Positions 7,937 to 12,431 of a stretch of 64,000 nucleotides of DNA are shown here, piece after piece. Within the stretch, counting starts at the first letter, position 1. Each line of letters opens with the position of its first letter. This DNA comes from Desulfovibrio gilichinskyi (GTDB lineage Bacteria > Desulfobacterota > Desulfovibrionia > Desulfovibrionales > Desulfovibrionaceae): NCBI RefSeq assembly GCF_900177375.1, contig NZ_FWZU01000002.1, forward strand, positions 372,001 to 436,000. The letters are read 5' to 3'. Made by a program: the position numbers and the translations under genes. The notes below the pieces were generated by a model. It was not told where the DNA came from, searched no databases, and worked only from the letters and a program-made list of their open reading frames with translations.

Positions 7937-8146
7937 GTGGTGTTTTGAAAATTTTTTGTACGGGAAAATGATTTGTCCTTATATTTCACAGAATTTCTTA
8001 TAACTCATCGTGATTTATTTAGAAAAGGGTGATTAAAAAGTTGGTGCATTAACGCTTTAATATATGTACATTTTTTTCAATTATATAATTCACTGTTCTT
8101 AACAGTAAGTATGGGCCGATTAAGTCATAATCCGGAGTACAAAGGA

Positions 8147-9325
8147 ATGAAGATCAATTTACTTAGTAAAAAGGTTACATGGATGGTTGTGATCGTTATC
8201 GCTCTACTTCCATTGCCTTCTATTGCTAATTATATGCAACGGTTTGTCGTTCGCAATGGAATCGTCACTGCATTTCGGTATGAAGTTCATGCTCCCATTG
8301 ACGGAGTCGTTGAAAATTTATCGGTCAGACCGGGGTCTGTTCCGGGAGTTAAGCCTGTTCTGCTGCTGGGCAACAGGCGAATGACAGGGCAACATGAAGC
8401 TTTGGAGCAAGAACTTACTTCTCTTGAGCAAAGCCTTAAACAAAGCATAGAGATTCGCGTAGAATATTTGGATAGAATCTCAAGGGATCTTGATCAGAGC
8501 CTTGGCATATTACGGGCCCGTTTGATTGGAGAAAAAGCCGCGCAGGAAGAATCTGAACATCGTCGTGACAGGACACTGAAACTTGTCAAATCATCTGTTG
8601 CAACTAAGGAAGATGCAGACAGGGTTGAATCTGAATATCGAAAAGATGAAGCAAAGGTAAAAACTACTCAACTGGAAATAATACAACTTAAGGAGCGTCG
8701 GCAGATGCTTGATAAGGGGATGATTCCACAAGATTTGTCTGATGGAGTACTTCAGGTTCAGAGTAGAATTAATATATTGCAACAGTCTATTCTTGCATGC
8801 AAAAGGCGGATGAGTGAAACCGAGACCGGCATTATCGATAATTCAGTTCCTTCTAAAGATTCTAAGCAGAATATAAACAATCGATCTGCCAGAGCCTCTG
8901 TTATGATACCTGACACATCCGTTATATGGGAAGTGGATGTGCAAAATGGTATGGAGGTCTCCAAAGGAGACCGGATTTTGTCTTATATTGATCGCAGCAG
9001 ACTTATGGTTGAAGTTTCGGTTGATGATGCTGTTTTGGAGCTTCTTAAACCGGGGCATCCTGTTAAAATACGTTTGTTCGGTAAAACAAATTTTATTGAA
9101 GGAAAGGTCAGCAGGATAATGGGTTCAGCTGGGATTTGGCATTCCAGTTTGCTGGCTGCAAGCATCAAGCAGAGGGCTGTCCGTGACGGTCGTGTTCTTG
9201 TTCAGATTGAAGATAAAGAGCTTTATAATGATGTTGAGAAATTTTGCGGTGTCGGGCGTACCGCTTATGCTGAGTTTGAGGGAATAGGACTTCTGGAACA
9301 GTATTTCGGAGTATTTCTGCGATGA
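8147..9325 (+). CDS. HlyD-like membrane fusion (periplasmic adaptor) protein
   Basis: A 392-residue protein with one N-terminal membrane anchor (VTWMVVIVIALLPLPSI). It has a split biotinyl-lipoyl-like domain (APIDGVVENLSVRPG near residue 50, matching half VIWEVDVQNGMEVSKGD near 265). A long coiled-coil hairpin lies between about residues 80 and 230, and a beta-barrel segment follows (VDDAVLELLKPGHPVKIRLFG). This is the architecture of adaptors that link inner-membrane exporters to the outer membrane. GGAG at 8134-8137 supports the ATG at 8147 over the one at 8111. It overlaps the next gene by four bases (ATGA). No ABC, RND or outer-membrane partner is nearby; the only partner is the CDF-like protein. 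Confidence 0.75.
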   Translation: MKINLLSKKVTWMVVIVIALLPLPSIANYMQRFVVRNGIVTAFRYEVHAPIDGVVENLSVRPGSVPGVKPVLLLGNRRMTGQHEALEQELTSLEQSLKQSIEIRVEYLDRISRDLDQSLGILRARLIGEKAAQEESEHRRDRTLKLVKSSVATKEDADRVESEYRKDEAKVKTTQLEIIQLKERRQMLDKGMIPQDLSDGVLQVQSRINILQQSILACKRRMSETETGIIDNSVPSKDSKQNINNRSARASVMIPDTSVIWEVDVQNGMEVSKGDRILSYIDRSRLMVEVSVDDAVLELLKPGHPVKIRLFGKTNFIEGKVSRIMGSAGIWHSSLLAASIKQRAVRDGRVLVQIEDKELYNDVEKFCGVGRTAYAEFEGIGLLEQYFGVFLR

Positions 9326-10233
9326 GCCGCAAAGTCTACACACTGTCTCAGCAACAGCTGGATAAAGAAAGTGCTGTATTCTGGGCAATTATTCTGGATA
9401 CGACAATTCTGACTTTTTTAACGATTGTCGGAACTCTCTCCGGATCAATGACAGCATTATCGGAGATTGTACGGTTCGCATTGCTGCTCTCAATAGAATA
9501 TATTTCTTATGTAGTGCTGAGGCGGGCCCACAGAGGTAAATTCAGTGAATTTGAATTCGGAATAGGTAAGATAGAACGGATTACTAATTTAGTAGTTGCT
9601 TTCGGGTTGCTACTGAGCAGTATGTATATTTTTTCAAAAGTAATCTCAATGACTGAAAGTGCTCCTATATCCACAAATAATCTGATGCTTACAATTGTCG
9701 GAGCAGATCTTAACCTTCTGGTTAATTACTATTTTTCTATCATGTTCATCCGCTCCAATCAGACTGAAAGTTCGGTCATCATTTCATCTCAAATTTCTGC
9801 GCGTATTGCCAAAACAGTTGCCTCATTTGTTGTTTTAGGTGTTTTGATGCTCACACTGTGGATTCCTGATCCTAAGATGGCTAGAATGGTTGATTTGTGC
9901 GGATCATTATTTCTGACAGTGTATATGGTAATCATCGCCTACGGCCTGATCAAAGAAAGTCTTCCTGAAATTCTTGACCGCACTATTCCGGAGCCTGATC
10001 ATTATCAAATACTCAGAATACTAGCTGAAAATTTTGATCAGTATGACGGCTTTTCCGGATACAAAGCCCGCAGAGCAGGTAAGGATTTATTTATACTTTT
10101 AAAATTGTGCTTTTTCTCAACACAGACCCTTGAGCAGATCGAGGCTCGTCTTCAGCCGGTACGAAAAGCTTTTGAAGCTGAAATGCCCGGATCAAGTATC
10201 ACCATAGAAACTGAAATGATGTGTAAAAAGTAA
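9322..10233 (+). CDS. CDF-like membrane protein lacking the usual metal ligands
   Basis: A 303-residue protein with the layout of cation diffusion facilitators: about six transmembrane helices to residue 205 and a C-terminal cytoplasmic domain of about 95 residues. The helix 2-3 loop FEFGIGKIERITNL is the CDF counterpart of the usual YGYGRAE-type motif. By eye alignment the zinc site has gone: the two Asp of helix 2 fall on E48 and F52, and the HxxxD of helix 5 falls in SSQISARIAKT with no His or Asp. It is translationally coupled to the HlyD-like gene upstream. It may move something other than a divalent metal, or be a structural or regulatory partner. Confidence 0.7.
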   Translation: MSRKVYTLSQQQLDKESAVFWAIILDTTILTFLTIVGTLSGSMTALSEIVRFALLLSIEYISYVVLRRAHRGKFSEFEFGIGKIERITNLVVAFGLLLSSMYIFSKVISMTESAPISTNNLMLTIVGADLNLLVNYYFSIMFIRSNQTESSVIISSQISARIAKTVASFVVLGVLMLTLWIPDPKMARMVDLCGSLFLTVYMVIIAYGLIKESLPEILDRTIPEPDHYQILRILAENFDQYDGFSGYKARRAGKDLFILLKLCFFSTQTLEQIEARLQPVRKAFEAEMPGSSITIETEMMCKK

Positions 10234-10317: not shown

Positions 10318-11124
10318 TCAGTCCTTTTCAATATCCAGCTTACGCTTGGTGGAATAGAGGAAGCGTATAAGGTCATATTCGAATGGTGAACCTGTCTGAT
10401 AGTACTTGAAAGGAGTGTTGGCTCGTAAGTTCAGTCCGCGTATGGTAGTATCAACAGCCCCGATAAGAGTTCTTCCGTCTTTTATTTGGAGCAGATTGTA
10501 GAGTTGCACCGTTTCCACCCAGAGTAGAGCAGAGTCTGCAGCAAGCCCTACGGAGTCACGCACATTGGAAGGTCCGAACAACGGCAGAACTACATACGGT
10601 CCGTCGCCGATTCCCCATACTCCAAGTGTGTCAGCTGTACTTGTCACAACTCTTTCAATTCCCCAGCCGGTAGCCACATCAAATATTCCTAAAATACCGA
10701 ATGTTGAATTTATAATCACTCTGTAGCAGGACCTTAAAGCTTTTTCGCCTCGCCCTTGCAGGGAACTGTTCAGAATAGCATTAAGTTCATTCATATTATT
10801 AATGGTGTTGCTGACTCCCTTGCGAACAGGGGTAGGCAAAACCGTGGTATATAAATCTGTGGCAGGAAGGAAAATGATTCTGTCAAATATGGCATTGAAC
10901 GCGTATATATTGCGGTTCATCGGCCCCCATGGATCGTAAACATCAAGGAAACCCAGATCGGCCTCTTCGCGCGCTATGTTTGCAGATGTAGGAGAGTGTG
11001 ACACTGGTGTCATAAAGCGTGTCGGCGGCAGTGTCATCATAGGATCGTCTTTTTGAATAGTCGCGCAGGCAGGGAGAAGCGCGAGAACCACGGTCAATAA
11101 TAGCAATTTTATGCGGGTAGTCAT
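10318..11124 (-). CDS. mlaA: MlaA (VacJ) family outer-membrane lipoprotein
   Basis: A 268-residue lipoprotein of the system that keeps the outer membrane asymmetric by removing phospholipids from the outer leaflet. The signal sequence ends in a lipobox with C20 (ALLPAC). The MlaA core is clear: YDPWGPMNRNIYAFN, then the long MNELNAILNSSLQGRGE helix region, STFGILGIFDVATGWG and GVWGIGDGPYVVLPLFGPSN. Its start overlaps the stop of the upstream exported hydrolase (ATGA), so the two are coupled. The partner genes mlaB-F are not in the window. Its length is close to that of E. coli MlaA. Confidence 0.92.
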   Translation of the reverse strand: MTTRIKLLLLTVVLALLPACATIQKDDPMMTLPPTRFMTPVSHSPTSANIAREEADLGFLDVYDPWGPMNRNIYAFNAIFDRIIFLPATDLYTTVLPTPVRKGVSNTINNMNELNAILNSSLQGRGEKALRSCYRVIINSTFGILGIFDVATGWGIERVVTSTADTLGVWGIGDGPYVVLPLFGPSNVRDSVGLAADSALLWVETVQLYNLLQIKDGRTLIGAVDTTIRGLNLRANTPFKYYQTGSPFEYDLIRFLYSTKRKLDIEKD

Positions 11125-12431
11125 AATTTCAACATCTCCTGCGCCTTAGCCGCAAAAGGCTTGAACATGATGTTCCCGCAATGCCCGCCGTGAGCGAAAA
11201 ATACAGCTCTGCTGCCGAATGTTTTTTGCAGAAAACCGACTTCACTTTTATCCAGAATAACATCGTCCAGATTTCCCAGTACAAAAATTTTATTTGAAGT
11301 TTTAAGATACTCTTCAATGCTCTCCAGACTGCAGCGACGGATGAGTTCTTCTTTTGTTATGCCGGGCGTAATAAATTGCTGATACGGCAGCAAATATTCA
11401 TCTACGTATCTTTCAAAAGTGATTGCCGCGGCGATTTTTGTGTAAGGCAGCAGGTCGTCTCCGGTGGACAGGGTTTTGCTTACAGGGACAATATACCCGG
11501 CATTGATGCACACATCAGAGGTGAAAATCATATTTGCAGAACTAAGTCTGAAGGATGCGGCAATAACGGCTTTGAGATCCATTTTTGAAAAGTTGTTATG
11601 ATTAGATAACGCATAAAGAAAGTTATCATCAAAGTCTGTTACATCTGTATTCAGATACATTTCTGAAAAAGAATGAATCAATTCATCAATAACCTGGCGC
11701 GGTTCTTTGCCGCCGAGATTTTCAGGGGTCAGCCATGAATCAAAACGCAGCGCAGAGTTATAAAGATTTACAGGCGGATTGATCATAAGTACTTTTTTGA
11801 AAGAGAAATCTTTACGAGTTTCATCAAGGTGAGCAATAAAAGCTGAGTGCATAGCTCCTAGACTGTAACCTGTGATTTCGTAACCGTTTATTTCGTATTC
11901 ATCTTCAAGTTCGGTTTTGATCCATTTCATAACGCGGTATAAATCTTCAACATCGTTTGGAACATAACCCGGCGCAGCGTATCTTGATGCGCTGACTACA
12001 AAATTCATATGAGTTGGAGATGAAAGCGCAACAACATGAAATCCGGCCGCGTAAAAAAGCTGAACTAAAAATTTCATTTTCGTGGAGTTATGCTCTGATC
12101 CGGTTCCGGCTATTATAAATAGAAGCGGAGCTTTTTCTTTCTGCATAGCTGTAGTGTAATTAAATTCTTTACTATACCAAAAAATCCCCGGGATTCTACG
12201 GTCTTCTATTTCTATTTGGCATTTTTTAGTTTCGGCAGGTTCAGAAAAAGTCTGCATAAGATCTGGAGGAGTTCCAAAGATGGTAGCCTTGTATGGATCA
12301 ACTATAGGGAACTCTGTCGTAGAGTTTGAGCTGGAAGCAAAAGCTGTGCTGTAAAAAAACAGCACAGATAAAAATATTAAAAAATAAGCGGCGATGCTTT
12401 TTTTTTCTATACTATGTTTTAAAATTATCAT
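11121..12431 (-). CDS. Exported alpha/beta hydrolase coupled to mlaA
   Basis: A 436-residue protein with a signal peptide (hydrophobic residues 13-30, cleavage likely after AFA at 32) and an alpha/beta-hydrolase domain. The nucleophile elbow is TGYSLGAMH with S190. IIAGTGSEHN near residue 107 fits the oxyanion region, and GHCGN near the C-terminus is a likely catalytic His. It overlaps mlaA by four bases, so the two are expressed together. An esterase or lipase acting on envelope lipids is therefore a fair inference. The substrate is not shown by the sequence. Confidence 0.8.
   Translation of the reverse strand: MIILKHSIEKKSIAAYFLIFLSVLFFYSTAFASSSNSTTEFPIVDPYKATIFGTPPDLMQTFSEPAETKKCQIEIEDRRIPGIFWYSKEFNYTTAMQKEKAPLLFIIAGTGSEHNSTKMKFLVQLFYAAGFHVVALSSPTHMNFVVSASRYAAPGYVPNDVEDLYRVMKWIKTELEDEYEINGYEITGYSLGAMHSAFIAHLDETRKDFSFKKVLMINPPVNLYNSALRFDSWLTPENLGGKEPRQVIDELIHSFSEMYLNTDVTDFDDNFLYALSNHNNFSKMDLKAVIAASFRLSSANMIFTSDVCINAGYIVPVSKTLSTGDDLLPYTKIAAAITFERYVDEYLLPYQQFITPGITKEELIRRCSLESIEEYLKTSNKIFVLGNLDDVILDKSEVGFLQKTFGSRAVFFAHGGHCGNIMFKPFAAKAQEMLKL

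Follow-up and report, generated by a model that had tools for sequence, protein, structure and literature searches.

A conserved gene pair of a periplasmic adaptor and a CDF-fold membrane protein lacking metal ligands in Desulfovibrio gilichinskyi

Described adaptors and CDF proteins in comparison with the new locus

Periplasmic adaptors of the EmrA, MacA and HlyD type have MFS, ABC or RND transporters as their known partners. The hairpin tip of HlyD, MacA and AcrA carries an RxxxLxxxxxxS/T motif which is described to bind TolC (PMC3391258). In the CDF protein YiiP/FieF, site A is reported to consist of D45, D49, H153 and D157 and site B of D68, H71 and H75 (PMC6465983). A CDF relative with an altered quartet has a precedent, since MceT, a Na+(Li+,K+)/H+ antiporter with the quartet YS-QD, moves Na+ and uses D41 and D184 (PMC6440370). 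Furthermore, for the CDF clades 13, 14, 17 and 18 an alignment of the clades is reported to have given at first no second pair suited to metal (PMC5703985), and ZnT6 is described as an auxiliary subunit within the ZnT5-ZnT6 heterodimer (PMC5666860).

The stretch of DNA analysed here, called the window, comprises 64,000 nucleotides of Desulfovibrio gilichinskyi, and all coordinates refer to it. On its plus strand it encodes a periplasmic adaptor of the HlyD/EmrA type (392 aa, 8147 to 9325), assigned by a HlyD_3 match, a start taken from relatives and a predicted model matching EmrA, and a membrane protein of the CDF fold that lacks metal ligands (303 aa, 9322 to 10233), assigned by a Cation_efflux match and a predicted model matching YiiP. 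The adaptor shares with EmrA, MacA and HlyD the domain order, the N-terminal membrane helix, the long alpha-hairpin and a tip of the RLS/RLT type, but the gene coupled to it encodes a CDF-fold protein. The latter has in common with FieF/YiiP the predicted fold of six helices and a cytoplasmic domain, the residues of the dimer lock, the acid in TM6 and R237, whereas the ligands of sites A to C are all replaced, site A reading R/L/A/K, and an adaptor gene overlaps. MceT likewise deviates from the usual site A quartet, in three of its residues, and the counterparts of its D41 and D184 are kept here; however, its YS-QD stands against R-L-A-K, and its D154 corresponds to a lysine. The charge inversion together with the linked adaptor seems to be new. 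In the literature covered (titles and abstract openings, with few subscription journals) no pair of a CDF protein and a HlyD or other periplasmic adaptor is described, nor is there anything on CDF proteins lacking ligands in such a pair. To our knowledge, the CDF-type transporter fold has not been reported to work with periplasmic adaptors.

Predicted folds and replaced metal sites

The adaptor matches Pfam HlyD_3 with 48.7 bits (cut-off 22.2). Its predicted model is of modest confidence (pLDDT 69.8, pTM 0.42) and contains N-terminal helices at residues 3-20 and 22-30, a hairpin helix at 82-148 followed by helices at 154-189 and 199-231, and flanking beta strands. EmrA and MacA are the best structural matches, EmrA being first: the top match in Foldseek is EmrAB-TolC (8zal_A, E 5.9e-17, TM 0.34/0.39), and VIA-align gives EmrA (4tko) a Z of 13.6 with 270 aligned residues and an rmsd of 40.4, many unrelated coiled coils following little below at Z 10-11. 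A sequence search of the PDB with the adaptor profile gave no match. The tip motif is present as R142-L146-T153-D158 (RLT type, 8570 to 8620, plus strand) and lies on the turn of the modelled hairpin. Together with the following acid it is found in 13 of the 15 adaptors from the gene pairs treated below, although the pattern is a short one; the adaptors of G015 and L071 keep the arginine and the leucine and have alanine in the third place. The adaptor of L070 includes a short run of unknown residues.

The second protein reaches 71.5 bits with Pfam Cation_efflux (cut-off 26.6) and stays under the cut-off of the NCBI CDF superfamily model TIGR01297 (76.9 versus 82.35 bits). Its predicted model (pLDDT 81.7, pTM 0.66) matches YiiP and ZnT structures. 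The alignment with YiiP (8f6k_B) covers 279 residues at Z 21.7 and an rmsd of 9.8, a high value which probably reflects domain orientation, and that with the cytoplasmic domain of CzrB (3byp) covers 81 residues at Z 12.4 and an rmsd of 1.7. The layout of six helices and a cytoplasmic tail, proposed in a sequence-only reading of the window, is thus also that of the predicted model. The charge lock K77-D207 of the FieF/YiiP dimer is kept as K83/D219; the lysine is present in 15/15 paired and 6/7 unpaired rows of the alignment and the aspartate in 15/15 and 7/7, respectively. The CDF-like protein is probably a homodimer like YiiP.

The same reading had stated that the metal ligands of CDF proteins are lost, which was confirmed for all three sites on alignment to FieF/YiiP. 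The site A columns D45, D49, H153 and D157 hold R51, L55, A160 and K164 in profile-profile comparison (HHalign) as well as in MAFFT alignment with 20 ordinary CDF rows; the site B ligands D68, H71 and H75 fall on F74, F77 and I81 in the joint alignment, and the histidine ligands of site C on S245, K261 and E296. The reading had, however, placed the Asp pair of helix 2 on E48 and F52, about one helix turn away from the correct columns. This register was rejected, HMMER against FieF, the joint MAFFT alignments and HHalign all putting D45 and D49 on R51 and L55. The absence of HxxxD from helix 5 was stated correctly, although HMMER alone, in our own reading of its alignment, slides TM5 by four residues and sets H153 and D157 on K164 and S168. 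No site A ligand is left on either register of TM5, whereas H153 and D157 are kept in 20/20 ordinary rows.

The replacing residues lie in TM2 (E48-R51-L55, 9463 to 9486), in TM5 (A160-R161-K164, 9799 to 9813) and in TM6 (D191, 9892 to 9894), all on the plus strand. In the R/K clade, which comprises 22 rows, R51, R161 and D26 are present in all of them and K164 in 21, the exception being a methionine in L127; positions 48 and 191 are D or E throughout. Two of these residues have equivalents in ordinary CDF proteins: E48 corresponds to an acid which precedes the first ligand by three positions (D or E in 17/20 ordinary rows) and D191 is aspartate in 20/20. By contrast, position 26 is A, N or S in ordinary rows or falls in a gap, and position 161 is L, Y or F. 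Since R51 is found in 22/22 and K164 in 21/22 rows, site A looks charge-inverted and not eroded. The metal site is, judged by these alignments, replaced by a conserved charged set of D26, E48, R51, R161, K164 and D191, and these residues may form salt bridges. The 22 rows do not stand for 22 independent events, because the profiles used to gather them derive from the paired proteins and near copies (L121, L123, L124) are among them. Two further rows, dist_L021+ and dist_L023+, had been taken from the wrong strand and were excluded from the later alignments.

Occurrence and descent of the gene pair

The overlap of the two genes by ATGA (9322 to 9325, plus strand), noticed already in the sequence-only reading, is borne out by the sequence, and an overlap of four bases occurs in 11/15 pairs. 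The adaptor start at 8147 was likewise well chosen: a longer open reading frame begins at 8111, but 8147 is favoured since the relatives begin at the equivalent methionine. Counts of promoter-like sites (12, where shuffled sequences give 6.9 on average, sd 3.0) and of terminator-like sites (3 versus 2.1) were not used as evidence. Downstream in the window, on the minus strand (10318 to 12431), a gene for an MlaA lipoprotein overlaps an alpha/beta-hydrolase-like gene, the Pfam match of the latter being slightly below the cut-off.

The pair was found in 15 genomes, always in the order adaptor and CDF-like gene. The spacing is -4 in 11 pairs and +1 in two, while single pairs have -1 and +15, so that 14/15 overlap or lie at most one base apart. 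In L071 (9065-9457) an ORF of 130 aa without a Pfam match touches the end of the CDF-like gene. Besides members of the window's family, the hosts comprise further deltaproteobacterial MAGs, a single gammaproteobacterial MAG and one genome of an Acetobacteraceae class, several of the genomes carrying the pair being MAGs. They include Desulfovibrio (L067), Pseudodesulfovibrio (L068), Desulfobacteraceae (L069, L071), Deltaproteobacteria (L070) and Gammaproteobacteria (L072), and G747 falls in the class of an Acetobacteraceae genome. Among 98 relatives, seven genomes possess both orthologues and none possesses one alone (E <= 8e-127 for the CDF-like protein and E <= 4e-151 for the adaptor); all seven belong to the window's genus, where they make up 7/17 genomes searched, the window's own included, and three other genomes of the 98 gave weak adaptor matches only (3e-4 to 8e-4). 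Further pairs are those of G389, L068, L070, L071, L072, G1357, G1266 and G747/L127, with L069, G389 and G1052 counted once as the same place and L067 and G007 likewise.

The wider searches each covered a sample of the taxonomic group concerned. In the phylum the adaptor profile matched 9/297 genomes at 1e-6, strongly only the window genome (G000) and G389, and the CDF-like profile 3/297 at 1e-20, strongly the same two. With the CDF-like protein 10/199 genomes of the family were matched at 1e-30, among them G028 (1.5e-43), which belongs to another ligand-poor group. Two classes gave 6/274 and 57/289 at 1e-20, where the seeds and a handful of others are strong and the rest lie between 1e-20 and 1e-34, ligands having been read for a minority of these weaker matches. 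Two orders gave 3/146 and 1/141 at 1e-30; the order-level search around G394 found no second member in its 141 genomes, and the sample around G747 was one genome only. Scans of viral contigs, tblastn against plasmids and a single-protein scan of genome contigs led nowhere.

The gene right after the adaptor is CDF-like in 15/15 pairs, such pairs being the target of the search, so that no MFS, ABC or RND transporter occupies this position, although one may be encoded elsewhere. Adaptor identity and CDF-like identity are correlated (0.97 over 105 genome pairs), a value to which common descent by itself contributes. A scan of 59 other CDF-type loci with the adaptor profile gave a neighbour only in L098, the locus of the pair L127; these controls mix ordinary, ligand-poor and unread CDF-type loci, unpaired R/K loci included, their flanks reach at most 1.5 kb and are in part cut by contig ends, and the profile (A6) may miss remote adaptors. 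Chance adjacency was rejected on the grounds of the both-or-neither distribution in the 98 relatives, the unshared flanks in the genus, the 15 pairs and the control loci, where the only adaptor neighbour is that of L127. The adjacency noticed in the window is therefore conserved in other genomes; the absence of such pairing elsewhere, named in the earlier reading as a ground for refutation, was not observed. Pairing and ligand loss, taken jointly, can be stated with high confidence. As a rule for the CDF-like protein the pairing holds in part: seven relatives with the R/K signature (L073, L121-L126) have no detected adaptor within the 17-18 kb read, and the CDF-like protein may therefore act without one. 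For L073, the closest adaptor relative encoded in the same genome is on a different contig, where it adjoins a glycosyltransferase-PilZ gene. An adaptor relative in L084 (7702-10916) adjoins a PilZ-domain glycosyltransferase as in loci of the cellulose-synthase type.

A quick tree of 52 rows separates 20 ordinary CDF rows (support 100) from 32 ligand-poor ones. The R/K clade forms 22 of the latter (support 96). Of the 15 paired rows, 14 are one group (98); L127, on a long branch, joins the unpaired rows (84), a placement which is unsure. The row closest to that of the window, G1357 (76 percent), comes from a different genus, G015 of the same genus being more distant, and the immediate flanking genes of the window had no match in six same-genus pair loci, of which 20 kb were read. 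The nearest row being from another genus and the flanks not being shared, the two genes seem to be passed between genomes together, as one unit. Between G007 and G013 dN and dS are 0.048 and 0.80 for the adaptor and 0.046 and 0.66 for the CDF-like gene; in all five row pairs compared dN is well below dS, which is saturated in some. Internal stop codons are missing from both frames in the 15 pairs. A decayed pseudogene was rejected for these reasons, and the open frames, the low dN and the invariant replacement residues speak for repurposing and not decay, as the earlier reading had it.

Two other groups of CDF-like proteins are poor in ligands. One with altered site A (L008, L009, L010, L011, L012, L130, L133, L148) keeps the histidine of FieF position 232 in 8/8, and 5/8 of its members combine G/V in TM2 with V in TM5 and the sequence QWRVPMS; no adaptor was detected in the available flanks of its eight loci. 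The other, from genomes of an Acetobacteraceae class (L128, 8411-9361, and L129, 8391-9344), has L, D, L and K in the site A columns.

Possible functions of the pair

The pair is real, conserved and unexplained. The explanation which we prefer, at a probability just short of even, is that the adaptor and the CDF-like dimer form a trans-envelope unit, the inner part of a TolC-type tripartite exporter; the reason lies in the anatomy of the adaptor and its tip motif. The first gene would provide the periplasmic adaptor, which combines beta domains with an N-terminal membrane helix and a long alpha-hairpin whose tip is of the RLT type, and the second a CDF-fold dimer in the inner membrane with a charged set in place of the divalent-metal site. 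As inner-membrane component this dimer would change its conformation without a bound transition metal and pass on to the adaptor a substrate other than a metal, possibly an anion; the adaptor in turn would dock on a TolC-type channel encoded elsewhere. An outer-membrane channel gene was not found among the flanking genes scanned with Pfam, and we know of no precedent for a dimeric CDF protein working with a hexameric adaptor. That the pair stands for a new class of tripartite exporters, combining a CDF-fold engine, a charge-inverted site, the handling of anions or organic acids and a TolC-docking adaptor, is rather doubtful. If true, a new transporter fold would be added to those served by periplasmic adaptors, and a CDF scaffold would be shown to stay under selection after the loss of all its metal sites. 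As the Arg/Lys pair is invariant, this question is open to ordinary mutagenesis.

As an alternative, the CDF-like protein could be a transporter for monovalent cations or coupled to protons which, like MceT, uses E48 and D191 in place of the lost ligands; both are positional counterparts of D41 and D184 of MceT and D or E in 22/22 clade rows. MceT, however, keeps D154 in TM5 where K164 stands here, conserved basic residues in the site disfavour a cation and no adaptor is mentioned with MceT in the accessible part of the paper (PMC6440370), so that this explanation appears quite improbable. Very improbable is an auxiliary subunit after the model of ZnT6 in its complex with ZnT5, the partner here being an ordinary CDF protein from another locus. 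The auxiliary role of a CDF-fold subunit would be the same in both cases (PMC5666860), the dimer-lock residues are retained, and besides the CDF-like gene the window genome contains a distant match of CDF type (G000:C4:33268-34038, 21 percent). Yet such a distant match is present in 16/17 genomes of the genus, with or without the pair, and the linked partner here is an adaptor and not a CDF protein, which would be left unexplained. The distant matches read for ligands (G006, G009 and G014 only) are all ordinary.

It is also conceivable, although unlikely, that the pair is a sensing unit in which the periplasmic part of the adaptor responds to a solute-binding protein or to envelope conditions, while the CDF-like protein relays the signal across the membrane through its cytoplasmic domain. 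An SBP_bac_3-GGDEF gene overlaps the adaptor start in G007 and G013, SBP_bac_3 genes flank the pair on both sides in G003 and lie at a distance of about 1 kb (G008) or 2.4 kb (L068), DctP adjoins the pair in L127, and Peripla_BP_6 together with SpoIIE or kinase genes is found no more than about 5 kb away in both L072 and L146. SBP_bac_3 lies within 4 kb of at least 5/14 pairs, against about 0.64 expected by chance from whole-genome counts of 3 to 44, both figures referring to the matches listed. These five pairs, however, represent about three lineages, G007 being the sister row of G013 and G003 that of G008, the types of neighbour vary, and solute-binding genes are plentiful in these genomes. 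Moreover, the six flanking genes scanned in the window include no solute-binding protein, and the adaptor retains a tip of the TolC-docking type. The link to solute-binding proteins is left as weak because the flanking genes were scanned with Pfam in part and the counts are those of the matches listed. The solute-binding GGDEF proteins whose genes overlap an adaptor start are encoded in L042 (7234-9450) and L043 (11245-14946), that of L043 containing four solute-binding stretches.
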